DNA of 46,011 bases. Source: an uncultured Neomegalonema sp. (lineage in GTDB: Bacteria; Pseudomonadota; Alphaproteobacteria; Rhodobacterales; Rhodobacteraceae). The stretch covers positions 1 to 46,011 of the forward strand of contig CALLLP010000024.1 of NCBI GenBank assembly GCA_938008165.1, given 5' to 3'. Positions 1 through 15,590 of this stretch are shown one piece after another (positions within the stretch are counted from its first letter, which is position 1; each line of letters begins with the position of its first letter). Under the pieces are notes generated by a model. That model worked only from the letters and a program-made list of their open reading frames with translations, was not told the DNA's origin and did no database searches. Both the position numbers and the translations under genes were made by a program.

Positions 1-452
1 GTGTCGCCTTTGGCACCCTGAGCGCCGGTGGCACCCGTTGCACCCTGAGCACCCGTTGCGCCGGTATCACCTTTGGCACCCGTTGCGCCGGTGGCACCCG
101 TTGCGCCGGTGGCACCCGTTGCGCCAGTGTCGCCTTTAGCACCCTGAGCGCCGCCGAAGGCAGCTAGCAGTTCATTGCGGTCTGCTTTACCGTTACCGTT
201 CGTGTCAAAGCCTTCACGAGCAAAGACGTCGTCGAAGCTTGCGCCGTCCTGGCCGTCAATACCGTTCGCGCCAGCTGCGCCGGTGTCACCTTTGGCACCC
301 TGAGCGCCGGTATCGCCTTTGGCACCCTGAGCGCCGGTAGCGCCCGTTGCGCCGGTGTCGCCTTTGGCACCCTGAGCGCCGGTGGCACCCGTTGCACCCT
401 GAGCACCCGTTGCGCCGGTGGCACCCTGCGCACCATCATGTCCTTTAGGACC
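1..452 (-). repeat. Degenerate 9-base collagen-coding repeats
   Basis: The minus strand carries many near-identical 9-base units encoding Gly-Ala-Thr, Gly-Ala-Gln, Gly-Ala-Lys and Gly-Asp-Thr triplets, interrupted only at about 152–243 by the EF-hand insert. Such tandem DNA can change copy number by slippage and can collapse in assemblies. Confidence 0.8.
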
Positions 453-632
453 TTCTGGACCCTGCGGCCCAATTGGACCCTGCTGGCCAGCGGGACCCTG
501 TGGGCCGATCGGGCCTTGAGAGGGAGCCTTGCTGGTGGTGCCGGTGTTGATCAATCCCGGAAAACTGCTTCCGGCGGATTGGCTTGGTTTGGAAGTGCTC
601 AAGTTGCTAAAATTAGCAATATTAAAAGACAT
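1..632 (-). CDS. Collagen-like repeat protein with embedded EF-hand (partial, runs off left edge)
   Basis: Reading the minus strand from ATG at 632 gives an open frame of 210 residues with no stop before the window edge, preceded by a good ribosome binding site (GGGGAAAG). Residues 1–39 are rich in Ser, Thr, Asn and Gln, with no hydrophobic Sec signal. Residues 40–130 are uninterrupted Gly-X-Y triplets (first GPQGPI types, then GAT, GAQ, GAK and GDT types). Residues 131–160 form a non-collagen insert holding a canonical EF-hand loop (D143, N145, N147, D151, E154; [12 protein letters not shown]). Triplets resume from 161 to the edge. The gene is divergent from the type III secretion operon. 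A Sec-less polar N-terminus beside these genes suggests, by inference, a type III substrate or surface fibre. The C-terminus is not visible, so length and anchoring are unknown. Confidence 0.85.
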
Positions 633-719
633 GGTGCTTTCCCCTGCATCCATTAACACTGAAAACTACTGCCATTTCAGGGTCGCCGTCCCGATTTAGC
701 CGTAGCATCCGAACGATTG

Positions 720-790: not shown

Positions 791-885
791 TGTAAATTCG
801 TCTTGTTTTGGGAGGGGAAACATGCGATATCACCTGAGGCGACGTTCTGATTGTTTTTAGTTGACGCGAAACTCAGGGATTTGTG

Positions 886-1551
886 ATGGTCAATCGTCTC
901 ACAATGTTACTGTTCTCGCTCGCATTGGTGCCCGGAATGTCGCTGGCCGCTGATGATGGGTGGCGTACGGAGCGGTTTAATATCGTCGTGCGGGATCAGG
1001 GTGTCCGTGATGTGCTTCGCCAGTTTGGCGCTTTGATCGGGGTGCCTGTTGTTTTGTCCGATGCGGTCGAGGCGCAGGTTTCTGCTCGATTCGAGGGGGC
1101 GAGCGGTGAGCAGATTATCGACGCGATTGCCCGCGAGTATGGTTTTGACTGGCGGTATGACGGGCGGCGAATCGAGGTTTCGTCGAGTAGCGAACAGGTT
1201 AGCCGTATTCTCGATATGGGCGGTGTGTTGCGCAAAGATTTGATTGTGGCGCTTGAGGCTCTCGATTCGTATGAGCCGCGCTTTCCGATCTCTGCGGTTG
1301 ATGGTGAGTTGGGGTTGTTGGTTGGCCCGCCCCGATATGTTGCGATTGTCGAAATCGTGCTGGCCGAGCTGGTTGAAAAACGCATTGCCGAACAGGCTCT
1401 TGAGGCGGAGCGTGTGGCGGCTGAGCAAGCTAGGCAGTTGGCTGAGCAGCGCCGTCTGGAGGCGTTGTTGGCTGAGCAGCGTAAACGCAAGCCACGTGAG
1501 ATCGTCTCTGACGTGCCGATTGTTAACCGTGGCGGACGGTGGGGAGGCTAG
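886..1551 (+). CDS. sctC1: Type III secretion secretin N-terminal protein (NolW/RhcC1-like, SctC N-domains)
   Basis: This is the first gene of the type III secretion operon, 221 residues. ATG at 886 is preferred over GTG at 883 because AGGGA (875–879) is then 6 bases upstream. A Sec signal peptide of about 21 residues ends in SLA, followed by an N0-type domain (FNIVVRDQGVRDVLRQF onward) and a short N1-type domain, then a charged Ala/Glu/Arg helix and a basic tail. Full SctC secretins are usually over 500 residues and carry the beta-barrel pore; that part is absent. Rhizobial systems encode the secretin in two pieces, NolW (RhcC1) and RhcC2, and this matches the first in length and position. 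The second piece is not in the window. I see no remnant downstream, so it looks like a natural short form rather than a truncation. Confidence 0.8.
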   Translation: MVNRLTMLLFSLALVPGMSLAADDGWRTERFNIVVRDQGVRDVLRQFGALIGVPVVLSDAVEAQVSARFEGASGEQIIDAIAREYGFDWRYDGRRIEVSSSSEQVSRILDMGGVLRKDLIVALEALDSYEPRFPISAVDGELGLLVGPPRYVAIVEIVLAELVEKRIAEQALEAERVAAEQARQLAEQRRLEALLAEQRKRKPREIVSDVPIVNRGGRWGG

Positions 1552-2022: not shown

Positions 2023-2211
2023 ATGAACGGAATAAATTCAATTGGCGGTGCGCCTGGTGCGGCCCCTTCCAACGGTGCTGAAGGTGCCGGTGGGAGCGAT
2101 TTTGATGCTATTTTCCAAGAAGGGTTGGTCAACACTTCTATCGTTATGCTTCAGCTCATCGGCGGTGATATTATTCAATCCGTCATGAAAGACGAAGCGG
2201 CAGTGGATTGA
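2023..2211 (+). CDS. Small type III secretion operon protein, possible needle/pilus subunit or exported component
   Basis: A 62-residue protein with AAGGAA about 8 bases before ATG 2023. The first 25 residues are Gly/Ala/Ser/Asn-rich and probably disordered, with no Sec signal. Residues 26–58 form a likely amphipathic helix (FDAIFQEGLVNTSIVMLQLI, then GGDIIQSVMKDE). Size and composition are in the range of needle (SctF) or other small secreted components, and it sits between a TPR candidate chaperone and sctI. I do not recognise a specific family. A second candidate for the needle is the gene at 11437. Confidence 0.7.
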   Translation: MNGINSIGGAPGAAPSNGAEGAGGSDFDAIFQEGLVNTSIVMLQLIGGDIIQSVMKDEAAVD

Positions 2212-3162: not shown

Positions 3163-4065
3163 ATGACGATCAGGAAAACTGGCTTTGCACTTGTGGCGCT
3201 CTTGGCGCTCGCCGGGTGCCGCGTTGAAGTCTATGACAAGCTGTCTCAGCGCGATGCGAACGAGATCACGGCCCTTCTTATGTCTGCATCCATCGATGCA
3301 AAACGGGTCGAGGACAAGGACGGGACATTTGCGGTCGAGGTGCCCGAAAGCAATTTTGCGGCGGCTGTGACGCTCATTGCCGATAATGGCCTGCCGCGTC
3401 CACAGTTCAAATCGATGGTCGATGTCTTCGATAATGACCGTCTTATCTCATCGCCGTCCGAGGAGCGTGCGCGCCTTGGCTATGCTGTGTCGCAAGAGCT
3501 TTCGCAGACGGTATCCGAAATCGATGGTGTTGTGTCTGCACGTGTTCATCTGGCCACCCCTGCGCTCGATCCTCTGGGTCGCCGGGTGAACAAATCTTCC
3601 GCTTCGGTGGCGATCCATCATGAGGAGGCTTTGTCGACCGAAGGGCTGGTCCCGCGTATCAAGCTGCTCATCTCCCATGCGGTCGACGATTTGCAGTATG
3701 ACGATGTGCTTGTCGCGCTGTTTCCTGTCGGGGGCGGCGTATCGGGCGACTCGTCTGTTGCGGCGCGTGTGACCACAAACCGAAGCGGTGGCGGCATTTT
3801 GGATGACATGGTGCGGCCGGGGGGTGATCCTTCCTATTCCGCCGGAGTCACGAATGGTTCTTCGCGGTCCCTTATCGCACCGGCGAGCGTAGGTGAGGCA
3901 TCGCCTTTCAGCCCCGCCATCGCAGTCATTCTGGCGGGCGGATTGCTGGTCTTGCTGATTGCGGCGAAGGGGCTGTTTGACAGGCCCCGCCAACGGGCGG
4001 CGGTAATGGCCGATGCCGATGACCGGCCTGTGGTTCCTGCAAAACGGCCACGCAGGCATTCATGA
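3163..4065 (+). CDS. sctJ: Type III secretion inner membrane ring lipoprotein SctJ (NolT/RhcJ, YscJ family)
   Basis: A 300-residue protein with a lipoprotein signal peptide and lipobox LAGC (Cys19), two periplasmic ring-building domains (D1 about 20–80, D2 about 115–190, including VSARVHLATPALDPLG) and one membrane helix at about 246–268, followed by a basic cytoplasmic tail. The family forms the 24-mer inner MS-like ring with SctD. GGAG lies 7 bases before ATG 3163. A small CACCC/GGGTG hairpin with a short T run (3130–3150) lies in the 40-base gap after sctI and could trim transcription. Its stop overlaps the next start (ATGA). Confidence 0.93.
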   Translation: MTIRKTGFALVALLALAGCRVEVYDKLSQRDANEITALLMSASIDAKRVEDKDGTFAVEVPESNFAAAVTLIADNGLPRPQFKSMVDVFDNDRLISSPSEERARLGYAVSQELSQTVSEIDGVVSARVHLATPALDPLGRRVNKSSASVAIHHEEALSTEGLVPRIKLLISHAVDDLQYDDVLVALFPVGGGVSGDSSVAARVTTNRSGGGILDDMVRPGGDPSYSAGVTNGSSRSLIAPASVGEASPFSPAIAVILAGGLLVLLIAAKGLFDRPRQRAAVMADADDRPVVPAKRPRRHS

Positions 4066-4772: not shown

Positions 4773-5380
4773 TGCAGGACGGCCATGATTTTTATGATTC
4801 TGCGGACAAGCCCGCTTCCGCGTCGAAAGTTCTGAAAGCACAGGATTTTGAAGCCTTATCGTCCGCGCGCAAAGGCATCGAGCAGGCGCATTCCGAGGCT
4901 CAAGGCGTTATTGCCGCCGCCCATCAGGAAGCCGAAGCCATCCGCGCCTCTGCCCATGCGGAGGCGCAAACCGAGCGTGCGGCCCTGATTGCGGAATACG
5001 CCTCGCGGATGAATGCTCAGCTATCGCGCACGCAGGAGACACTGAGCGGCGTCGTGATGACCAGCCTGCGTCGGTTGCTCGACCCTGTGCCAAAAGCGGA
5101 AAAGGTCGCCGGAGCCGTTGCCTGCGCCATCCGCGAAACCGATATTTCGGGCGGAGCCGTGCTGATCGTGGCGCCCGCTTTGATGCATACCCTGCGTGAG
5201 CAATTCGAACGGCGTGGGATTGCGGCGGAGATGATCGAGGTGCGCGGCGACCCTGATTGCCCGCTCGAATCCAGCATTCTTCGCTCGGCCTTCGGGGATG
5301 TCGAGCTTGGCATTGAATTCCAGTTGCGCGCCATCGAACGCGGCCTGAAGGCGGCGGCCAAGGGAAACGATCAGCCATGA
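4772..5380 (+). CDS. sctL: Type III secretion ATPase stator SctL (NolV/RhcL, FliH/YscL family)
   Basis: A 202-residue protein starting at ATG 4772, which shares one base with the upstream TGA; GTG 4769 is an alternative. Residues 25–95 are an Ala/Glu/Gln-rich coiled coil (IEQAHSEAQGVIAAAHQEAE and continuing), typical of FliH-type peripheral stalks. The C-terminal domain (about 100–200) includes AVLIVAPALMHTLREQF and a helix ending IERGLKAAAK that resembles the V/A-ATPase E-subunit fold. It tethers the hexameric ATPase to the SctQ platform. It overlaps sctN by 4 bases. Confidence 0.88.
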   Translation: MQDGHDFYDSADKPASASKVLKAQDFEALSSARKGIEQAHSEAQGVIAAAHQEAEAIRASAHAEAQTERAALIAEYASRMNAQLSRTQETLSGVVMTSLRRLLDPVPKAEKVAGAVACAIRETDISGGAVLIVAPALMHTLREQFERRGIAAEMIEVRGDPDCPLESSILRSAFGDVELGIEFQLRAIERGLKAAAKGNDQP

Positions 5381-6747
5381 TGACGCTGGGTGACAGCTTT
5401 GCTCAGCATGGGCCGCATATCAGCGCCCTGCGTCTGGGCAATGTGTGCGAATCAGTTCCACTGCGTCCCACTGTGGGACGGGTCTCGAAGGTATCGGGTA
5501 CCATCGTCGAAGCCATCCTCGCAGGGGGTAAGCTGGGCGAAATCTGTGCGTTGGAAAATCCGGGCTTGCATGGCAGCGCGCCACGCCTTGCCGAAATCGT
5601 CGGGTTTCGCGATGGAATCGCGTTGCTGGGGGTGATCGGCGAGATGGCGGGTCTGTCCTCGCGCACGCGGGTGACGCCCACCGGCACGCCGCTATCCGCT
5701 CCGGCGGGGGAGGCAATGCTGGGGCGTGTGCTCGACGGTTTGGGCAATCCGCTCGATACGCGGTTGCGTGGTCCACTTGATGTCGCAGAATGGCGGACCG
5801 TCGATGCCGCGCCCACCGATGCGCTGGACCGGATGCCGGTTATTCAGGCGATGCCGCTGGGCATTCCGGCGCTCGATGCGCTCAACGTCATCGGTGAGGG
5901 CCAGCGTGTCGGCCTGTTCGGTGAGCCGGGGACGGGTAAATCGACCTTCGTCTCGGCGCTCGCCAAGGCCGCCTCCGCCGATGTCGCCGTGATTGCGATG
6001 GTCGGTGAGCGTGGGCGCGAAGTGACAGAATTCATCGAGGATGCCTTGGGTCCGGAGGGCTTGGCGAAATCCGTGGTCGTCGCGGCGACGTCCGACCGCC
6101 CGGCGATGGAGCGGATCAAGGCCCCCTTTATCGCCGCCGCCATTGCCGAATATTTCCGTGATCAGGGTAAGCGCGTGCTGTTCCTGATGGATAGTCTGAC
6201 TCGCCTTGCCCGTGCCCAGCGCGAAATCGGTCTTGCGGCTGGCGAACCTCCGGCCCGGCGCGCTTTTCCACCATCGGTTTTTGCGATGATGCCCAAGCTG
6301 ATTGAGCGGGCCGGGGTCTCGCCGGGGGGCGGATCGATTACTGCGTTCTACACCGTATTGGTGGAAGATGACGGGGTGGGCGATCCGATTGCCGAGGAGG
6401 CGAAATCCCTTCTCGATGGCCATGTCGTCCTGTCGCGAAAACTGGCGGAAGCGGGCAAATTTCCCGCCGTCGATGTGCTGGCGAGTCGCAGCCGTGTCAT
6501 GGCGCGGGTCGTGGAGCAGGATCACTCGCGGGCCGCCGAGCGCGTGCGCGCCTTACTCGCCCGATATGACGAAGTCGAATTGTTGTTGCGCATGGGCGAA
6601 TATGCGCGCGGTTCGGATGCCTTCACGGATGAGGCGATCGACAAGAAGGAGCGGATCGACGCCTTTATCCATCATTCCCTGTCCAAGTCGGAAGACTGGA
6701 AGACCATTGTGGATGCATTGGGCTTTCTGGCGTCACCACCGCAATGA
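5377..6747 (+). CDS. sctN: Type III secretion ATPase SctN (RhcN/FliI family)
   Basis: 456 residues, the usual family length. An N-terminal beta-barrel domain spans about 15–100. The F1-beta-like core has Walker A GEPGTGKST (182–190), the conserved VGERGREV (209–216), Walker B VLFLMD with Asp272, and the type III-specific loop PPSVFAMMPKLIERAG. The C-terminal domain includes EVELLLRMGEYARGSD. The enzyme strips chaperones from substrates and unfolds them at the base of the export gate. It overlaps both neighbours by 4 bases, which implies translational coupling with its stator and stalk. Confidence 0.97.
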   Translation: MMTLGDSFAQHGPHISALRLGNVCESVPLRPTVGRVSKVSGTIVEAILAGGKLGEICALENPGLHGSAPRLAEIVGFRDGIALLGVIGEMAGLSSRTRVTPTGTPLSAPAGEAMLGRVLDGLGNPLDTRLRGPLDVAEWRTVDAAPTDALDRMPVIQAMPLGIPALDALNVIGEGQRVGLFGEPGTGKSTFVSALAKAASADVAVIAMVGERGREVTEFIEDALGPEGLAKSVVVAATSDRPAMERIKAPFIAAAIAEYFRDQGKRVLFLMDSLTRLARAQREIGLAAGEPPARRAFPPSVFAMMPKLIERAGVSPGGGSITAFYTVLVEDDGVGDPIAEEAKSLLDGHVVLSRKLAEAGKFPAVDVLASRSRVMARVVEQDHSRAAERVRALLARYDEVELLLRMGEYARGSDAFTDEAIDKKERIDAFIHHSLSKSEDWKTIVDALGFLASPPQ

Positions 6748-7238
6748 CACCGAAGCAAATCGCAGAGGCGCTGCGGGTGCGCCGCCGCCGCGAGGAGCGC
6801 GCCCTTGCCGCCCTGCAACAGGCGCAGGCGATGCAGGCGCAGGCGGAGGCAAAGCTCGCGGAGGCGAAGGGCGCGCTTGCCGCGTTTGATTCCCGGCTTG
6901 AGGCGAGCCTTCATGCTTTTGAGGAACGGGCAAAGATTGGGCTTAATCCCCATAGTATCATGGGCATGCGCGCCTTTCATGCGGATCAATTGAAACTGCG
7001 GGAAGCGTTTCACGACCCTATCGCGCTCGCCGAAGGGGCGGTTTCAATGGCGCAGGATGCGGTCGCCAATGCGCGGCATCAATGGAAGCAAGCATCGCAA
7101 GCGGCAGATAACTTGCAAGAAATGAGCGCCAAGATGGCCACGAGCGCCGCACGCGATCTTGAGCGTCGGCAGGAACAGGACCGGGACGAGATCGCGGCGA
7201 CGCGCGCCGCCCGTGCGTCCATGGAACAGGACGGATAA
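6744..7238 (+). CDS. sctO: Type III secretion central stalk SctO (YscO/FliJ-like)
   Basis: 164 residues, predicted almost entirely as an antiparallel coiled coil: Arg/Glu/Ala/Gln-rich heptads at 8–60 and 90–160 with a turn near GLNPHSIMGM. There is no signal peptide. Position directly after sctN, with ATGA overlap, and this architecture match SctO/FliJ, the stalk that inserts into the ATPase hexamer and contacts SctV. Sequence identity is not diagnostic in this family; architecture and context carry the call. Confidence 0.82.
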   Translation: MTPKQIAEALRVRRRREERALAALQQAQAMQAQAEAKLAEAKGALAAFDSRLEASLHAFEERAKIGLNPHSIMGMRAFHADQLKLREAFHDPIALAEGAVSMAQDAVANARHQWKQASQAADNLQEMSAKMATSAARDLERRQEQDRDEIAATRAARASMEQDG

Positions 7239-7239
7239 C

Positions 7240-8313
7240 GTGAGTATGCTCGATTTCTTTTCTGCGGACAGGTCCAAGGTGGTCCCTCTCGCCCTAGAGC
7301 GGATCCGGCCACAGGCGGCGAACCGCAATCGGACCCTTGCATGGCCCCGGACGCCGTTCCTTCTGGCCGAAGGGATCGAGATGGCACTCGTTCCCGATGG
7401 GCGGCTGATTTGGGAGGGGGCGGGCGAGCGGATCGATATCGCTTTCACCGTCGGGGGAGAAGTGGGGTATGTGACGACCGTAACGCCGGTCGTCCAGCGT
7501 CTTCTGGCCCGTGCCGATATTCGGGTGCGCCCGGATCAACTGGATGCCGAACTGGCCGCCATGGTCATCGAAACCGTTCTGATCGACCGCATCGAGACCA
7601 TCGAGCGGCAGATCGGCGCCGAAATCGCCCTGCTCAATCTCGATCGCCGGGAGGAGCGGGCATCGCTCGCGAGTTTGTGCTTCGAGTTGCGTATGACCGA
7701 TATTGGCACAGTGTATCCTGGCATGATCCACGCTCCGGCATCCTTGCTGTCGCTCATTGCGCGGTCTTGGACGCAGCAGCCCGCTCAGGAATCCGACGGG
7801 GAGATTGTGACCTTCATGCTCGCGTGTCGGGTTGCCTTTACCGACCTTGCATCTTCTGCCCTGAGAGAACTGGGCGTGGGCGATGCGATGCTGTTCGACC
7901 GGGTTGCCGTTCCGGGAGGCGCGGCGGTGGTCGTGGCCGAGGCGCTTCATGCGGTGGCCAAATTCGATGGGGAAGGAATTCTTTACCTATCCGAACCATT
8001 AAACAAACCAGAGCCGTACGCTCTCGGAGAATTCCTTATGACTGAAGAAGATGATCATGAGAGGCCCGTACAAGCCGTCATGGAAGCCGATATCGATGAT
8101 CTTCCCGTGCGTCTCGTCTTCGAGGTGGCCCGGCAGAACGTAACGCTGGAAGAATTGCGGTCCCTTGGCGTTGGCGCACCCATCCCGCTCGACCGTCCGG
8201 CATCCTCTGCCGTTCAGATCTTCGCCAACGGGCGACGGATCGGGGCCGGGGAAATGGTCATGATCGGCGATCAGCTTGGCGTGCGGGTCACACAGTTGAA
8301 CGGCAATGCCTGA
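7240..8313 (+). CDS. sctQ: Type III secretion cytoplasmic platform protein SctQ (RhcQ, SpoA domains)
   Basis: 357 residues from GTG 7240 (GGACGGA just upstream); ATG 7246 is an alternative two codons on. The C-terminal about 75 residues form a SpoA/FliN domain (DDLPVRLVFEVARQNVTLEE through GDQLGVRVTQL). A second, weaker SpoA-like region lies at about 200–260 (EIVTFMLACRVAF onward). Between them is an acidic linker beginning at ATG 8038 with its own ribosome binding site (see separate entry). SctQ forms the sorting-platform pods with SctK and SctL. Its stop overlaps sctR by 8 bases. Confidence 0.9.
   Translation: MSMLDFFSADRSKVVPLALERIRPQAANRNRTLAWPRTPFLLAEGIEMALVPDGRLIWEGAGERIDIAFTVGGEVGYVTTVTPVVQRLLARADIRVRPDQLDAELAAMVIETVLIDRIETIERQIGAEIALLNLDRREERASLASLCFELRMTDIGTVYPGMIHAPASLLSLIARSWTQQPAQESDGEIVTFMLACRVAFTDLASSALRELGVGDAMLFDRVAVPGGAAVVVAEALHAVAKFDGEGILYLSEPLNKPEPYALGEFLMTEEDDHERPVQAVMEADIDDLPVRLVFEVARQNVTLEELRSLGVGAPIPLDRPASSAVQIFANGRRIGAGEMVMIGDQLGVRVTQLNGNA
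8026..8313 (+). promoter_or_regulatory. Internal ribosome binding site and start for a C-terminal SctQ form
   Basis: GGAGA at 8026–8030 lies 7 bases before an in-frame ATG at 8038 that opens MTEEDDHERPVQAVMEADID and runs to the sctQ stop. This would yield a separate 91-residue SpoA-domain protein. Internal initiation making SctQ-C is established in several type III systems; here it is read from sequence only. Confidence 0.6.
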
Positions 8314-8959
8314 ATTAAACGCAAATGTGCTGTCCCTCATCATCGTCGTGATGATGCTGGGGTTTTTGCCCTTCGTCGCGGTTGCCGTGACGGCTTTCGC
8401 AAAGATCACTGTCGTATTGTTGATCGTGCGAAATGCCCTTGGCGTACAGCAGACGCCGCCGAATATGGTGATTTACGGCATTGCGCTGGTCCTGACCGTC
8501 TATATCGCGGCGCCCTTGGCGGCACAGTTGCAGACGGTCCTGTCGGACCCGACTCTTAATTTTGAGACGCTGGACGATTGGCTTGCCGTCTTCGAGCAGG
8601 GGGTCGAGCCGGTGCGCGACTTTCTGCTGCGTCATGCGCGTGTCGATGACCGGGCGTTCTTCATGGAGGCCACGGCATCGGTCTGGGGACCGGAGCTGGC
8701 ACAGGGCGTGGACAGCGAGTCCCTGTCCGTTCTCGTGCCTGCCTTTCTCGTGTCGGAGCTGACCCGCGCCTTTGAGATTGGCTTCTTGCTCTATCTGCCG
8801 TTTCTGGCCATCGATCTGATCGTCTCGGCGATCCTGATGTCGCTTGGGATGATGATGGTGTCGCCGATCATGATCGCGATTCCGTTCAAGCTGTTCCTGT
8901 TCGTGGCGGTGGATGGCTGGTCCCGACTCGTACAGGGCCTTGTCTTGAGCTACACATAG
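8306..8959 (+). CDS. sctR: Type III export gate protein SctR (RhcR/FliP family)
   Basis: 217 residues with four hydrophobic segments: two near the N-terminus (about 8–30 and 50–75) and two at 155–205. Conserved family stretches include VAVTAFAKITVVLLIVRNALG and QTPPNMVIYGIALVL, and later AFLVSELTRAFEIGFLLYLP. SctR pentamers with SctS and SctT form the helical export gate. It starts inside the end of sctQ, 8 bases overlapping, and is followed 13 bases later by sctS. Confidence 0.97.
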   Translation: MPELNANVLSLIIVVMMLGFLPFVAVAVTAFAKITVVLLIVRNALGVQQTPPNMVIYGIALVLTVYIAAPLAAQLQTVLSDPTLNFETLDDWLAVFEQGVEPVRDFLLRHARVDDRAFFMEATASVWGPELAQGVDSESLSVLVPAFLVSELTRAFEIGFLLYLPFLAIDLIVSAILMSLGMMMVSPIMIAIPFKLFLFVAVDGWSRLVQGLVLSYT

Positions 8960-8972
8960 GGGAGCGGCGAAT

Positions 8973-9242
8973 ATGACCGAAGATTTTCTCGCCCGCTATC
9001 TGCTGCTCGCCGCGATTGCCAGTATGAAAAGCGCGGCGCCACCCTTGATCGTCGCGGCGTTGATCGGTTTCGTCGTCGCCCTGTTTCAGGGTGTGACACA
9101 GATTCAGGATCAAAGCCTGCCAATCACGCTCAAGATTCTTGTTGTCGGGGCGACTTTCCTGTTCTTCGGGGCGTCGCTGGCCAGTCCGGTGGTCATTCTC
9201 GCGGATGAGGCGCTGCGCATTTTTCCCACTGCATCACGCTGA
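8973..9242 (+). CDS. sctS: Type III export gate protein SctS (RhcS/FliQ family)
   Basis: 89 residues with two membrane hairpin helices (about 10–38 and 52–75). The conserved FQGVTQIQDQSLPITLKI follows the first helix, as in FliQ/SctS. GGGGAGCGG lies before ATG 8973. It is the four-copy layer of the export gate. The order R-S-T-U matches all non-flagellar systems. Confidence 0.96.
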   Translation: MTEDFLARYLLLAAIASMKSAAPPLIVAALIGFVVALFQGVTQIQDQSLPITLKILVVGATFLFFGASLASPVVILADEALRIFPTASR

Positions 9243-9266
9243 CGGGCGCAAAGGGGAGGGCGTATC

Positions 9267-10064
9267 ATGCTTGAGGTCGTCCAGTTCATCCTGCCGCTCG
9301 TCGAGGCGGGGGCGCTGACCTTCGCGCGTCCGCTTGGGTTCATCATCGTTTTCCCGCTGTTCTCATGGCTTGGATTGCAGGGCATGATTCGCAATGTCAC
9401 TGCGATTGCCTTTGGCTCGCCGTTCCTGCTGATGATCTACACGCAGATTTCCGGATCGCCCGAAACCTTTCCCGCGGAATACATCGTTTTGCTGGCGGGT
9501 AAGGAGTTCCTGGTCGGCGTCACATTGGGGATCATTCTGGGTGTGCCATTCTGGGGCGCGGAGATGGCGGGAGCCTATGTCGATGTGTATCGCGGCAGTT
9601 CCTCGGCCACGGTCGTCAGTCCCGATCAGATGTCGGAGCCGCTGGTCTCGGGCGCGGTTTTCTCGATTGCGCTGGTGGCGATCTTCCTGTCCATGGGGGG
9701 ATTGCGGATGGTGCTTGGGGTGCTCTACGAAAGCTATGGAATCTGGCCATTCTTTGAGGTCTTGCCGCAGATTTCGGGGGATATCTATCCGGTTTTCCTT
9801 GAGTTGCTGGGCACGGTTGCACGCATTTCGCTGGCGTTGGCTGCTCCCTTGCTCATCGCGATGTTTGTGGCGGAGCTGGCGCTGGCCTTCACAAGCCGTT
9901 TTGCTCCGCAGATCAATATCTTCGATGCGATGTTGTCGCTCAAGAATATCGTGTTTCTCGTGATCTTGCCGCCCTATCTCTACTTTCTCGCGCGGTATTA
10001 CGGGTCAGAGGTTCTCGACCTGCCGGGGCTGGTCAATATCATTCGCAAGCTGGTGGGGCCATGA
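9267..10064 (+). CDS. sctT: Type III export gate protein SctT (RhcT/FliR family)
   Basis: 265 residues, polytopic, with about six hydrophobic segments. It contains GKEFLVGVTLGIILGVPFWG and AELALAFTSRFAPQINIFDA, both typical of FliR/SctT. AGGGGAGGG precedes ATG 9267. It is the single-copy cap of the gate. It overlaps sctU by 4 bases (ATGA). Confidence 0.96.
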   Translation: MLEVVQFILPLVEAGALTFARPLGFIIVFPLFSWLGLQGMIRNVTAIAFGSPFLLMIYTQISGSPETFPAEYIVLLAGKEFLVGVTLGIILGVPFWGAEMAGAYVDVYRGSSSATVVSPDQMSEPLVSGAVFSIALVAIFLSMGGLRMVLGVLYESYGIWPFFEVLPQISGDIYPVFLELLGTVARISLALAAPLLIAMFVAELALAFTSRFAPQINIFDAMLSLKNIVFLVILPPYLYFLARYYGSEVLDLPGLVNIIRKLVGP

Positions 10065-11119
10065 GCGGCGAATCCTCAGAAGAAAAGGCCCTACCGCCCT
10101 CCGAGAAAAAGCTGCGCGAAGGGCGCAAGAAAGGCCAGATCGCCAAGAGTACCGATACGGTCTCGGCCATTATCATGATTTTTCTCGCGGCCTATCTCAT
10201 CCTTGGCTGGCCGGTCATTCGGGGCGCCTTTCAGCGCATGTTCGATACGGCGGGCATCGCGGCGGCGCGGGGGGGGACGGATTCGTGGGAAGCGGCTATT
10301 CGGGATACCTGGGCGGCGATGGGGGTCATCATGGGGCCGATCTACATCGTGTCTTTCATGGCGATTTTCCTCGGTTCGGTCATTTCCAACAAGGGCATTG
10401 TCATCTCCTTTCATCAGGTAAAGCCCGACCTGAAGAAGATTCACCCCGGTGAAGGCTTCAAGAAAATCTTCAGTGCGAAAAACTTCATCGAGTTTCTGAA
10501 GGCATTGGTGAAAAGTATGCTGATCCTCATCGTCCTAGCCGCAATCGGCTGGTACGGTTTGGGGCCGATCATGCAGGCGCCGCTGTGTCAGGAAGATTGC
10601 ATCGATGAAGTCATCGTCATCGTTGCCCTGCCGCTGATCTTCGCCGCGCTGACCTTGTTCGTCGTCTCGGCCATCGTCGATATCACGCTTCAGAAATGGC
10701 TGTTTACGCGTGAAATGCGGATGACTCATTCCGAGATGAAGCGCGAGATGAAGGAAGTCTACGGTGATCCTATGGTGCGCCGCGCCCGGAACGAAATGCG
10801 CCGCAATGCTGGCTCCGAAACCGGCTCAGGTAAGGCATCGGAATATCTCAAGGGAGGGGAGGCGACGATCATCGTCTGTTCCGGCACTCAGATCGCCGTG
10901 GGGCTGCGATACGTGTCCGGCGAGACGCCTGCCCCGATCGTCGTGGCCAAGGCTACAGGCGCGCGGGCGTCGCTGTTGATTGCTGACGCGGTTGGGGCGG
11001 GCCAAACCGTCGTGAATGATCCGGAGGTTGCCGCCGCCTTGCTTCAACAGGGTCGAATCGAGGCGTTTGTGCCAGAATCGCTCTTCCGCGATGTGGCCCG
11101 AATCATGAATAGGGCGTAA
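10061..11119 (+). CDS. sctU: Type III export switch protein SctU with non-canonical autocleavage site
   Basis: 352 residues: an N-terminal SEKKLREGRKKGQIAKS motif, four membrane helices (about 30–200), then the cytoplasmic FlhBC-type domain. The family cleaves itself at Asn-Pro-Thr-His to switch substrate class. At that position, read directly from 10880–10891, the residues are Ser274-Gly-Thr-Gln277 between IIVC and IAVGLRY. The catalytic Asn and Pro are both replaced, while the flanks align well and the frame is intact to the stop, so this is not a degraded copy. Autocleavage by the known Asn cyclisation should be impossible. Whether substrate switching works without it is unknown. Confidence 0.93.
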   Translation: MSGESSEEKALPPSEKKLREGRKKGQIAKSTDTVSAIIMIFLAAYLILGWPVIRGAFQRMFDTAGIAAARGGTDSWEAAIRDTWAAMGVIMGPIYIVSFMAIFLGSVISNKGIVISFHQVKPDLKKIHPGEGFKKIFSAKNFIEFLKALVKSMLILIVLAAIGWYGLGPIMQAPLCQEDCIDEVIVIVALPLIFAALTLFVVSAIVDITLQKWLFTREMRMTHSEMKREMKEVYGDPMVRRARNEMRRNAGSETGSGKASEYLKGGEATIIVCSGTQIAVGLRYVSGETPAPIVVAKATGARASLLIADAVGAGQTVVNDPEVAAALLQQGRIEAFVPESLFRDVARIMNRA

Positions 11120-11436: not shown

Positions 11437-11631
11437 ATGGCACAAAATATCGCAGGCGTCGGTCAGCAGACCGGCGAAACTGGTACAGCTGGTGATAACG
11501 GATCGGATGCTGCAATCGCATCGATGGAAGCGGCTTTTGACCGCGCCATCGCGAAGGCAGCGGAAGTAACCGAGAAGCGCATGGAGGGCGGCTCCGCTCT
11601 CGACGCGGCTCGGACCCGTCTGTCGAACTAA
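11437..11631 (+). CDS. Candidate T3SS needle/pilus subunit (SctF/NopA-like position)
   Basis: 64 residues with AGGAG about 8 bases before ATG 11437. The N-terminal 22 residues are Gly/Gln/Thr-rich and lack a Sec signal; residues 23–60 are one or two amphipathic helices (SMEAAFDRAIAKAAEVTEKR then SALDAARTRL). A strong promoter upstream and a strong terminator straight after suggest high, independent expression, as expected of a subunit polymerised in many copies. In rhizobial systems a small pilus subunit gene (nopA) lies near sctD and sctV. The needle role is inferred, not shown by a motif. Confidence 0.75.
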   Translation: MAQNIAGVGQQTGETGTAGDNGSDAAIASMEAAFDRAIAKAAEVTEKRMEGGSALDAARTRLSN

Positions 11632-11744: not shown

Positions 11745-12617
11745 ATGAAGCATGTCTGTGTTCTGAGCGGAATACATCGCGGAGCTGTTGTCGAGATCGG
11801 CGACACTCCCGTTTTGATTGGTGGCGACGATGATTGCGACGCCCTGCTGTCCGACGAGGCGGCAAGCGGGTCGGTCGTGCAGATCGCGTCCCGGCCTGAC
11901 GGCACGCTGCGGGCCACGCCCATGCGCGGTGTTGTCTCGCGCAATACCCGTCGCCTTCGGTCCGACAAGGAAATTTCCTTCCGCAAGGGCGCCGTTATCG
12001 GCGTCGGGGGTGTCGATATCGCCGCTGGCCGTGATCTTGATATGGCCCGCAAGGCCATGTCGGAGCGGGACAAGAGGCGCATGATGCTCAATTGGGGCGG
12101 TTTCTGTGCCGCCTGTATCGTTGCGTTCGGCCTGTTTGCGGCGGTTGGTGGCCCTGCGGATGCGTTCAATTCCTTCCGTACCCCAAAGGTCGTGCTGCCA
12201 TCCGTCGAGGCGGAGCGCATCAAGCCCGATCCTTTGGCCGAGCTGGATCGCGAGCTTGCCAAACAGGGATTGTCAAATCGTATCACTTTGAAACGCACTG
12301 GCTCGATGCAGATTCTTGCGACCGGCACGGTCGACGCGTCGCAGTTTGACCGCTGGAACGGGCTTATCCGTTGGTTCGATGGGCGTTTCGGCAGTGTTAC
12401 AATGCTGGACTCGCAGGTGAAGGCCAAGGGGGATGGGTTTGTCCTGCCGTTTCAGATCGTATCGATCCATTCCAGCCCCAATCCGCATGTTGTCATCCAG
12501 AACGGTCAGGTTTTTTCGATTGGGACATTCATGCCGGGAGGATGGGAGTTGCGCGATATCGCGAGCATGAAAGTCGTTCTCGTACGTGGAGATCAGGAGC
12601 TTGCCATCTCGTTTTAA
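11745..12617 (+). CDS. sctD: Type III secretion inner membrane ring protein SctD (Y4yQ-like)
   Basis: 290 residues. The N-terminal FHA-like cytoplasmic domain (about 1–95; SGIHRGAVVEIGDTPVLIGG) is followed by one membrane helix (about 115–135) and a periplasmic part of about 150 residues with a ring-building (BON-like) fold (MQILATGTVDASQFDRWNGL). This is shorter than Ysc-type SctD but right for rhizobial Y4yQ. SctD builds the outer concentric ring around SctJ and holds the cytoplasmic pods. The first gene after the terminator, it is followed by a 137-base gap. Confidence 0.85.
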   Translation: MKHVCVLSGIHRGAVVEIGDTPVLIGGDDDCDALLSDEAASGSVVQIASRPDGTLRATPMRGVVSRNTRRLRSDKEISFRKGAVIGVGGVDIAAGRDLDMARKAMSERDKRRMMLNWGGFCAACIVAFGLFAAVGGPADAFNSFRTPKVVLPSVEAERIKPDPLAELDRELAKQGLSNRITLKRTGSMQILATGTVDASQFDRWNGLIRWFDGRFGSVTMLDSQVKAKGDGFVLPFQIVSIHSSPNPHVVIQNGQVFSIGTFMPGGWELRDIASMKVVLVRGDQELAISF

Positions 12618-13132: not shown

Positions 13133-13503
13133 ATGATTCATTCGGGGTTACGAAATCGGTGCGGACAATCGGGTCAGAGGCAAAGGCCCGGTCCCTGCAC
13201 GCGCTGGGCGCATTCTATCTGCGTCAGGGCTTTCCCAAACAGGGGCTGTCGCTCCTGTTGGCCGCGCGTGATTACGGGATCGTGGATGGTGCGCTCGATC
13301 GTGCCATCGCTCAAGCCTATCTGTTGAGTGGCGCGCCGAAGAAGGCATTACAGGTTCTTGATGACATCGATGGCAGTCTGAGCACCCAGAATTTGCGCGA
13401 TAGTGCCGGTATCCTGCGCAGTCGTGCGCTTTTGGCGCTGGGGCGTGTCGATGAAGCGCGCGAGACCTTCGCCATGACGGTCGGGATGGGGGAGCGGGTA
13501 TGA
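13129..13503 (+). CDS. TPR protein of the T3SS cluster (Y4yS-like position)
   Basis: 124 residues with two to three TPR-like helical pairs: about 20–50 (LHALGAFYLRQGFPKQGLSL), 52–75 (AIAQAYLLSGAPKKALQVL) and 92–115 (ILRSRALLALGRVDEARETF). There is no signal peptide. It overlaps both the preceding unknown gene and sctV by 4 bases. Rhizobial clusters carry a TPR gene (y4yS) beside rhcV. A class II-type chaperone or a sorting-platform accessory are the likely roles. Confidence 0.8.
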   Translation: MNDSFGVTKSVRTIGSEAKARSLHALGAFYLRQGFPKQGLSLLLAARDYGIVDGALDRAIAQAYLLSGAPKKALQVLDDIDGSLSTQNLRDSAGILRSRALLALGRVDEARETFAMTVGMGERV

Positions 13504-15590
13504 TCACTTCCCTCCATCGCGGCTTGAATGCCGTGGGCAAGCGTCAGGATCTGGTGGTCGTGATTTTGCTGGTGACGGCGATCATGATGATGATCCTTCC
13601 GCTGCCGACTTGGCTGGTGGATGTTCTGATTGCCGTCAATCTGGCGGGGGCCGTGTTGCTGCTGATGATGGGGCTTTATCTGAAGCGCCCGCTTGAATTC
13701 TCGACACTGCCTTCGGTCATTCTGATCGTGACGATCTTTCGTCTCGCACTGTCGATTACCACTACGAGACTCATTTTGCTCAATGCCGATGCCGGGTCGA
13801 TTATCGAGACCTTCGGTCAGTTTGTGATCGCGGGCGAGATCATTGTCGGCCTCGTCGTGTTCCTGATCATCACCATCGTGCAGTTCGTGGTGATTACCAA
13901 AGGGTCCGAGCGCGTGGCCGAAGTCTCCGCCCGCTTCACCCTCGATGCTTTGCCCGGAAAGCAGATGTCGATCGATAGTGATCTGCGGAACGGCGATATT
14001 GATGCCAAGGAGGCGCGCTCGCGCCGCCGCATGATCGAGCAGGAGAGTCAGTTCTTCGGCGCGATGGACGGTGCGATGAAATTCGTGAAGGGCGATGCCA
14101 TCGCTGGTCTCGTCATCGTCGCGGTCAACCTGATCGGCGGTATTGCCATCGGGATGGTCAGTCACAACATGGCGGCGGGCGAGGCGGTCGAGACCTATTC
14201 GCTGTTGACGGTTGGCGATGGGCTAGCGGCACAGCTTCCGGCGCTGTTCGTCTCGCTTGCGGCGGGGTCGGTGATTACCCGTGTTGCGACCGATGAGAAC
14301 GAGAACCTCGGCGCCGACATCACGCGCGAGATGATTTCCAGCACGATTGCCCTGCGCGTGGCATCCGTGATCCTGTTCGTCATGATGTTCATTCCCGGTT
14401 TTCCCTGGGCTGTCTTTCTGGTCCTTTCCGCTGGCCTGATGGCAATCAGTTTTTCCGACAAGCTCGGATTGATGATGTTCGGGGATAAGCAGGAAGGTGA
14501 GGAGGGCGATTCAGGCAGTGATTTGCTCGATACGGTCGGAATCGAGAAAAGCCCGTTTGTCGTGCGGGTTAATCCCGGTTTGCTGGATGCTGAATCGCGG
14601 GCGGTATTCTCCGACGAAGCCGCCGAGGCGACGCTGGGGATCAGCGCTGAAATCGGTCTGTCCATCCTGCCCCCGCGCTTGGTCGAGGATACCTCGCTGG
14701 GCATCGATGCCGTGCGTGTCGATCTGGATGATGTTGCGGTTGCGGGGTTTGTGATCGATCCTGAGCGTATGGCGGTGGATGCCGATGCGGAAACCCTGAC
14801 CCTTGCGAATGTGGCCCATGACGCGGCGACAAGCCCGCCCTTGGGATTTCGCACCCTGCATTGGATCGACCCGAATGATGCCAATGGTCTGGCCGAGCAT
14901 GGCTTGGTTCCGTTAACGCCCTTGGAGACGCTGTTGATCGGCACCCGCGCGACACAGCTGCGCTTTGCGTCGCAATGTATTGGTGTGCAGGAAACGCGCT
15001 CTGCCTTGATCGGCATGTCCCAAAACCACCCGGATCTTGCCTCCGAAGTGCGCGACCTTCTCCCGCTGAACAAGGTATCGGAGGTCTTCCGCAGGCTGGT
15101 CGATGAGGATGTTCCGATCCGCAATCAACGCCTGTTGTTGGAGGCGCTGGCCGAATGGGGCGCGAAAGAGCAGGATCCGGTTGTCTTGACGGAATACGTG
15201 CGTACCGCCCTGAAACGTCAGATTTGCAATGCGCTGGCGGGCGAGGATCGGGTCATTCCGGTCTATCTTCTGGATAGCGGTGTCGAGGATGCGTTGCGCA
15301 ATGCAGTGCGACAAACCACGGTCGGCGAGTATCTCGCGCTCGATGACAATCTGTCGGCCGCTCTGGTCGATGCCATTCGCGATAATCTGCGTGAGCCGAC
15401 GGAAGGCGGAACGCCGCCTGCGGTACTCGCATCGCTGGATGTGCGGCGGTTTGTGCGAAGCCTGATGAGTAACAACGGGATGCGCAATACTTCTGTCTTG
15501 TCCTATCAGGATCTGTCGACAGAATTCACGATCACCCCGATCACCACGATTTTGCTGCCTGAACTGAATTATCCTGCTGCTGCAGAATAA
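13500..15590 (+). CDS. sctV: Type III export gate protein SctV (RhcV/FlhA family)
   Basis: 696 residues. The first about 330 hold seven or eight membrane helices and the family signature RFTLDALPGKQMSID (145–159) in the FHIPEP region. An acidic linker (about 340–355) leads to the cytoplasmic domain, which forms the nonameric docking ring for chaperone–substrate complexes. Length is normal and the frame is intact. It is the last gene of the secretion cluster; its stop is 9 bases from the convergent Rieske gene, with no terminator visible between them. Confidence 0.97.
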   Translation: MITSLHRGLNAVGKRQDLVVVILLVTAIMMMILPLPTWLVDVLIAVNLAGAVLLLMMGLYLKRPLEFSTLPSVILIVTIFRLALSITTTRLILLNADAGSIIETFGQFVIAGEIIVGLVVFLIITIVQFVVITKGSERVAEVSARFTLDALPGKQMSIDSDLRNGDIDAKEARSRRRMIEQESQFFGAMDGAMKFVKGDAIAGLVIVAVNLIGGIAIGMVSHNMAAGEAVETYSLLTVGDGLAAQLPALFVSLAAGSVITRVATDENENLGADITREMISSTIALRVASVILFVMMFIPGFPWAVFLVLSAGLMAISFSDKLGLMMFGDKQEGEEGDSGSDLLDTVGIEKSPFVVRVNPGLLDAESRAVFSDEAAEATLGISAEIGLSILPPRLVEDTSLGIDAVRVDLDDVAVAGFVIDPERMAVDADAETLTLANVAHDAATSPPLGFRTLHWIDPNDANGLAEHGLVPLTPLETLLIGTRATQLRFASQCIGVQETRSALIGMSQNHPDLASEVRDLLPLNKVSEVFRRLVDEDVPIRNQRLLLEALAEWGAKEQDPVVLTEYVRTALKRQICNALAGEDRVIPVYLLDSGVEDALRNAVRQTTVGEYLALDDNLSAALVDAIRDNLREPTEGGTPPAVLASLDVRRFVRSLMSNNGMRNTSVLSYQDLSTEFTITPITTILLPELNYPAAAE

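Follow-up and report, generated by a model that had tools for sequence, protein, structure and literature searches.

An SctU protein with SGTQ at the autocleavage site

The stretch of DNA analysed here (46,011 nucleotides of contig CALLLP010000024.1, assembly GCA_938008165.1, from an uncultured Neomegalonema sp. of the Rhodobacteraceae; hereafter the window) comes from contig 24 of an assembly that totals 3.14 Mb in 56 contigs and has a completeness rating of 85%. It carries a cluster of type III secretion system (T3SS) genes in the collinear order secretin piece, sctJ, unassigned genes in the places of sctK and sctL, sctN, an sctO-like gene, sctQ-R-S-T-U, an sctD-like gene and sctV (Table 1). 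Within it sctR, sctS, sctT and sctU are contiguous (8306-11119), and our subject is the last of these, which encodes the export gate subunit whose self-cleavage normally signals the injectisome to turn needle building off and cargo delivery on.

The first-pass annotation had described an otherwise intact SctU in which Ser-Gly-Thr-Gln (SGTQ) replaces the Asn-Pro-Thr-His (NPTH) cleavage motif between well-aligned flanks, and both points held. The open reading frame (ORF) is uninterrupted over 352 aa and its product, a member of the SctU/FlhB export gate family PF01312, matches that profile almost over its full length (positions 1-332 of 335, E=3e-69), with a score of 248 bits against the NCBI SctU model TIGR01404, under the cut-off of 358. 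The suggested alignment with RhcU and other SctU proteins places SGTQ in register with NPTH, and the four residues fill the NPTH columns without a gap in every alignment made, be it with same-genus orthologs, with rhizobial SctU or with NPTH-bearing FlhB and SctU proteins. In printed phmmer alignments, solved FlhB chains match the window SctU and have 'npeh' or 'npth' in the motif column. The worry that a true motif might lie nearby in register proved unfounded, as the expression NP[TEAQS][HKYRW], run over the whole protein, had no match elsewhere. An AlphaFold2 model (mean predicted local distance difference test score 77.6; mean 93 for residues 271-280) predicts strands 269-274 and 278-283, linked by an SGTQ turn as a continuous hairpin.

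Orthologs of this SctU were present in 11 of 13 same-genus genomes (56-75% identical in ten of them, 39% in the remaining one), the named matches being metagenome-assembled genomes of uncultured Neomegalonema. Asn-Pro is absent at the motif place in 11/11 of them, and a sequencing artefact, or a raw-read error whose correction would restore NPTH, is thereby excluded. Seven orthologs have SGN plus Q, M, T or D there, two have SKND, one AGNT and one DGDA; Asn thus occupies the third position in 10 of the 11, and Thr in the window. Across six Neomegalonema pairs, whole-gene sctU dN/dS was 0.028-0.110, a rough estimate with dS near saturation in several pairs, and for the C-terminal part alone the four pairs with a computable dS had values of 0.036-0.089. 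As to whether close relatives share SGTQ under purifying selection, they share the loss of Asn-Pro and the selection, with exact residues that vary, and the loss is a maintained trait, neither decay nor error.

The genome encodes three PF01312 proteins. Besides the window SctU there is the SctU of a second T3SS (contig 1), whose motif place reads FEDQ, and a flagellar-type FlhB (contig 21), which has NPTH. The second T3SS (genome G000 contig 1, L076:9361-19319) is divergent, and its sctO-like and sctQ ORFs have no gene between them. The T3S4 ruler domain PF02120 occurs once in the genome, inside a 778-aa ORF that adjoins a FlgD-like ORF and lies about 1 kb from a flagellin-like ORF (both named by eye), and from these flagellar-looking neighbours we read it as FliK. 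On this evidence, the flagellum of this genome seems to have retained the complete switch, NPTH-bearing FlhB and ruler alike, and its two injectisomes seem to have neither part.

Loss of the motif across the Rhc-type family

The absence of the motif reaches well beyond Neomegalonema. Of 43 loci in named genomes, 35 are without NPTH and eight have it, the former including Sinorhizobium, Rhizobium, Mesorhizobium, Chelativorans, Phyllobacterium, Bradyrhizobium and Pseudomonas luteola. NPTH is absent in Rhc-II (S. fredii NGR234 pNGR234b), Rhc-I (S. fredii CCBAU 45436, with nol and nop genes) and Rhc-III (R. etli Mim1), where one member was read per subgroup and subgroups were assigned by strain and gene content, with names from an excerpt of PMC3973906. 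Asn-Pro also occurs at residue 126 of L043 and at residue 72 of L052, in both cases far from the motif column (residues 266 and 269).

In a quick tree of 100 proteins with the motif columns removed, 53 of 54 NPTH-less proteins fall into one clade (84% at its base, 98% one step in), inside which Neomegalonema forms a branch of its own. A more careful tree, built from 83 proteins and restricted to columns 1-330, which end before the motif, unites 51 NPTH-less and two truncated SctUs (ultrafast bootstrap/Shimodaira-Hasegawa-like approximate likelihood ratio test, UFboot/SH-aLRT, 99/94), and with all columns except the motif the same 53 SctUs stand apart from the remaining 30 rows (100/98). The fragments L060 and L063 were left out of all trees, and 25 further rows, nine of them long-branched (L094 included) and 16 thinned, out of the 83-row trees and the topology test below. 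By this grouping with the Rhc-I, II and III SctUs, the window SctU belongs to the Rhc T3SS family. A loss confined to the window's own lineage is ruled out by the NPTH-less rhizobial SctUs and the tree, the framing of a single-protein exception has to be given up, and the statement that NPTH is nearly invariant was too strong for a motif missing from an entire T3SS family.

How often the motif was lost depends mainly on L099 (genome G254). This NPTH-less SctU stands among NPTH-bearing T3SS rows on columns 1-330 (95/91), and joins the NPTH-less clade at its base in the quick tree (SH-aLRT 84) and the all-but-motif tree (91/63). Under the approximately unbiased (AU) test, one clade comprising all 54 rows without Asn-Pro was not rejected (p=0.097), and with this result and the unstable placement a second independent loss in L099 fails as an established event. 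The NPTH-less L094, from the second T3SS of Phyllobacterium salinisoli, is long-branched and its placement unsure; with it included, a 108-row quick tree requires three changes. Nearly all of the data would be explained by one loss, and one or two extra losses are possible.

An empty place for the ruler gene and SctUs without the switch domain

The ruler gene sctP appears to be missing together with the motif. Twenty-two NPTH-less clusters were read one gene at a time (the window, nine more loci from Neomegalonema, the genome's second T3SS, L068, L070, L152, L153, L155, L161, L166-L170), and in 22/22 the place of sctP is empty, with an sctO-like gene and sctQ, or sctQ alone, after sctN. Between the SctN stop and the SctR match lie 1559 bp in the window and 1046-1741 bp in 32/32 NPTH-less clusters measurable on one strand, some of these being near-copies and the motif state of four being taken from separate readings. 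Conversely, an sctP-like gene is found in 6/6 judgeable NPTH-bearing T3SS clusters. In L164, where SctN and SctR are 2344 bp apart, it matches HpaP at E=5.8e-9, above the Pfam cut-off, and TIGR02514 at E=3.4e-11, under the NCBI cut-off; that of L149 matches TIGR02514 at E=4.8e-6, under cut-off, and that of L150, which has no model match, is a homologue of the L149 gene (44%, E=1e-25). The L071 gene has an HpaP match and is annotated sctP, the L172 gene is annotated with an HrpP C-terminal domain, and the L174 product shares 33% identity with the L071 SctP (E=1e-18). Not counted among the six are L058, L129, L063, L156, L162/L100, L163/L101 and L165/L104, whose slot was unjudged, and the flagellar-like L154 and L173. 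The pairing can be followed between relatives, as L161, the cluster of the NPTH-less L099, reads sctN-sctO-sctQ, whereas its NPTH-bearing relative L164 reads sctN-sctO-sctP-sctQ.

Profile searches were less telling. A search with TIGR02514 for an SctP ruler gave no match at E<=1, and its control matches lay only under its cut-off. A T3S4 profile run over 3021 ORFs matched six sctP-like genes, five of them members of the model and only L174 (E=1.5e-12) new; the sole line in NPTH-less loci, L169:10878-11294 at E=0.15, was taken as noise. When members were left out in turn, L164, L149 and L150 were recovered and L071 and L172 missed, and for this reason the argument for the absence of sctP rests on the empty slot and not on the profile scan. 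An excerpt of PMC3574062 reports no hrpP/yscP-like gene in any Rhc subgroup, which is independent support for a missing sctP. By its gene content, then, the window cluster is without an SctP ruler gene, as is the Rhc T3SS family.

Some members of the clade have lost the whole switch domain. The SctUs of Rhizobium sp. BT03 (L152:7983-8780, 265 aa) and Sinorhizobium medicae T10 (L155:7983-8804, 273 aa), the two truncated proteins nested within the NPTH-less clade of the 83-protein tree on columns 1-330, stop before the hairpin, and no remnant of the domain fits behind them, as the next genes begin 61 and 207 bp downstream. A 265-aa SctU is annotated on three more Rhizobium plasmids. We also observed that in L152 and L155 sctN is followed directly by an sctQ-like gene, without sctO or sctP, the most reduced gate in this analysis.

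Organisation of the cluster and neighbouring observations

Table 1. Features of the T3SS cluster and its surroundings in the window.
Feature	Position	Strand	Evidence or remark
Divergent collagen-like Gly-X-Y repeat ORF	3-659	-	D-x-N-G-N-G segment; runs off the window edge
N-terminal secretin piece (RhcC1-like)	883-1551	+	TIGR02516 positions 2-142 of 463, under cut-off
62-aa ORF upstream of sctJ	2023-2211		Needle-protein candidate
sctJ	3163-4065	+	TIGR02544
sctN, ATPase	5377-6747	+	PF00006, PF18269
sctO-like	6744-7238	+	PF16789 (YscO-like) E=0.00039, under cut-off; between sctN and sctQ
sctO/sctQ junction, place of sctP in NPTH-bearing systems	7239-7245	+	No gene
sctQ	7246-8313	+	Probable start, inferred; longest ORF from 7159 overlaps sctO
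sctR	8306-8959	+	PF00813
sctS	8973-9242	+	PF01313
sctT	9267-10064	+	PF01311
sctU, export gate subunit (FlhB/YscU/RhcU family)	10061-11119	+	352 aa, ORF intact
Ser274-Gly275-Thr276-Gln277 at the NPTH position	10880-10891	+	Context EATIIVC-SGTQ-IAVGLRY
64-aa ORF after sctU	11437-11631		Possible needle or needle-associated protein
sctD-like	11745-12617	+	Y4YQ_C domain (named for a rhizobial protein), PF23893 E=6e-10
sctV	13500-15590	+	PF00771

The collinear cluster is intact in nine further Neomegalonema loci. Two small ORFs are conserved along with it: that upstream of sctJ, a candidate needle protein, is kept in nine Neomegalonema clusters (51-68%), and that after sctU, possibly a needle or needle-associated protein, is 75-86% identical in ten Neomegalonema loci and 43-54% identical in nine Rhc-II-like loci. 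Beside the cluster, at the edge of the window, lies a collagen-like repeat ORF.

As to the outer membrane, Rhc systems have their secretin divided between a C1 and a C2 gene. The secretin profile PF00263 had no match in the window's own genome, where only the N-terminal piece was found, and in the 11 same-genus genomes with an SctU, all draft assemblies, no listed secretin place is on the sctU contig. Five secretins that were tested scored best as GspD-like. The T3SS cluster of Paracoccus sanguinis (L153:14835-16061), another member of the Rhodobacterales, has AGTR instead of NPTH in its SctU, and its secretin is of pilus type, with a T2SS-T3SS_pil_N domain. Genes for CpaD-family pilus lipoproteins are annotated near sctU or upstream of sctJ in the T3SS of Bradyrhizobium and R. 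etli (L126, L132, L069), and in L069 such a gene adjoins a secretin-family gene, which suggests that outer-membrane parts of Tad type were borrowed. The gatekeeper profile PF07201 (SctW) gave no match, and its controls likewise matched in 0 of 14 genomes.

A proposed gate without the switch and its alternatives

The three possibilities raised in the first-pass annotation for this protein were another way of switching, no switching, or a single locked state. We consider it rather probable that in the Rhc-type T3SS of the window, SctU has permanently lost its Asn-Pro site together with the ruler SctP and acts as an uncleaved, unswitched gate. The co-absence of sctP and the SctUs without a C-terminal domain favour the second possibility, as a trait of the Rhc-type clade and not of one protein. 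From the lost motif, its absence throughout the clade, the purifying selection, the empty sctP slot and the relatives without the C-terminal domain, all read from sequence, we infer that SctU would not be cleaved in the cell and that needle length and substrate class would not be switched through it; what would set the order of export is likewise conjectural. Rhc-type systems thus probably work without the SctP/SctU switch.

In such a system SctU would be kept as a structural subunit of the gate, its beta-hairpin covalently continuous at the usual cut, and early and late substrates would leave through the one unswitched gate, the order of export being set otherwise, for which expression timing, chaperones or affinity for SctV are our guesses. 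A system that had lost its ruler would have one reason fewer to keep NPTH, because in Xanthomonas the Asn and Pro of the motif are required for binding of HpaC (SctP) besides cleavage (PMC3040844, excerpt). According to the same excerpt, the HrcU mutant N264A, in which cleavage at NPTH is abolished, exports the early substrate HrpB2 but not translocon and effector proteins; in the Rhc-type systems the gate would have to have been rewired, so that late substrates pass uncut. Extended to its full breadth, this reading says that a whole T3SS family, legume symbionts included, exports needle or pilus parts and effectors through a never-cleaved, never-switched gate, that SctP and the cleavage site were lost as a module, once at the base and possibly again elsewhere, and that some members later deleted the whole switch domain. 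We hold this wider claim to be only slightly better than evenly balanced.

Several points weigh against the proposed switchless gate. The NPTH-bearing controls are few (six), the sampling started out from NPTH-less sequences, and near-copies occur among the 32 measured clusters; the loss of the motif and of sctP may be a single event, in which case the pairing arose perhaps only once. The incompleteness of the window's own assembly must also be kept in mind. In Neomegalonema the C-terminal domain is conserved, which suggests that it still does something, and a ruler or switch protein unrelated to those known could take part.

This last thought leads to the most serious alternative, which we regard as distinctly less probable, namely that switching persists through an Rhc-specific protein without recognisable T3S4 sequence that binds the uncleaved C-terminal domain of SctU and alters its conformation. 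The purifying selection on that domain and its confidently predicted fold are consistent with such a partner, analogous rhizobial proteins are offered as an option in an excerpt of PMC3973906, and the limited sensitivity of the T3S4 profile would allow one to escape notice. Yet the usual slot is empty in every cluster read and short in every cluster measured, and the very domain to which the partner would bind is gone from some SctUs of the clade.

It is improbable, in our judgement, that SctU is instead locked, with the new turn imitating the post-switch (or pre-switch) surface so that the cleaved state is mimicked without a cut. Turn-forming replacements are indeed the rule, with SGN, SGT, AGN or SKN in most of the genus and turns containing G, D or P in rhizobia, the motif is often one residue shorter in the alignment, and the AlphaFold2 hairpin is unbroken; the turn residues differ between groups, however, which argues that no specific mimic surface is conserved. 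Cleavage that persists through a host protease or at another bond is more improbable still: the Asn at the third position in most same-genus relatives could hint at it, but the window has Thr there, the clade includes SctUs without any C-terminal domain, and the cut at the HrcU motif depends on its first Asn. A decaying system undergoing neutral change, or an artefact, can be dismissed for practical purposes, for apart from the missing PF00263 match in the genome, the cluster is collinear and intact in nine further Neomegalonema loci, dN/dS is low, and the same trait is seen in 11 other same-genus genomes and in S. fredii Rhc-I, whose subgroup is reported as functional in nodulation (PMC3973906, excerpt).

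If the switchless gate is real, a large natural family without NPTH or SctP would mean that injectisomes can dispense with the switch module, and cultivable symbionts such as Sinorhizobium would become test beds for the role of cleavage and for how secretion is ordered without it. That motif and ruler are absent together also agrees with the idea that working with SctP is a main task of NPTH. The SGTQ of the window may thus serve as an entry to a broader case, that of a T3SS family without an autocleavage switch.

Comparison with known systems

Canonical YscU, EscU, SpaS, HrcU and FlhB combine NPTH with a ruler partner (SctP or FliK). The window SctU resembles them in its PF01312 match and its relatives of solved structure, and differs from them in having no NPTH and in a cluster without a ruler gene. 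For such systems, excerpts of the literature describe autocleavage of SctU/FlhB as required for switching (PMC7064499), and NPTH as highly conserved, with cleavage as the proposed trigger and the cleaved domain as the target of the SctP ruler (PMC10333785). For rhizobia, an excerpt of PMC3973906 states that SctP has not been identified and that such control is perhaps not needed. The absence of sctP from Rhc systems is thus already published, and the loss of NPTH is apparently unreported, as we found no statement of an RhcU without NPTH in the open-access literature searched, where a missing NPTH came up only for engineered deletions in HrcU.

Among the known systems nearest to that of the window is Rhc-II (S. 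fredii NGR234 pNGR234b, S. meliloti GR4, Ensifer adhaerens), whose RhcU is 36-37% identical to the window SctU and likewise lacks NPTH. The Rhc-II clusters L067 and L070 share with the window the N-terminal secretin piece, a homologue of the sctD-like gene (20-23% identity) and a similar SctN-SctR interval (1531 bp), and in L070 sctO is followed by sctQ as annotated, with none between; unlike in the window, their sctU is separated from sctT, in a second gene block. The Rhc-I system of the S. fredii CCBAU 45436 symbiotic plasmid has an RhcU without NPTH as well (RGTAVLIGLRY) and a single gene between sctN and sctQ, but its RhcU is 31% identical to the window SctU and its cluster holds nopX, nopP, nopC and nol genes. 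The truncated SctUs of Rhizobium sp. BT03 and S. medicae T10, finally, belong to the same clade as the window SctU, from which they differ in ending before the hairpin, without the C-terminal domain that Neomegalonema has conserved.
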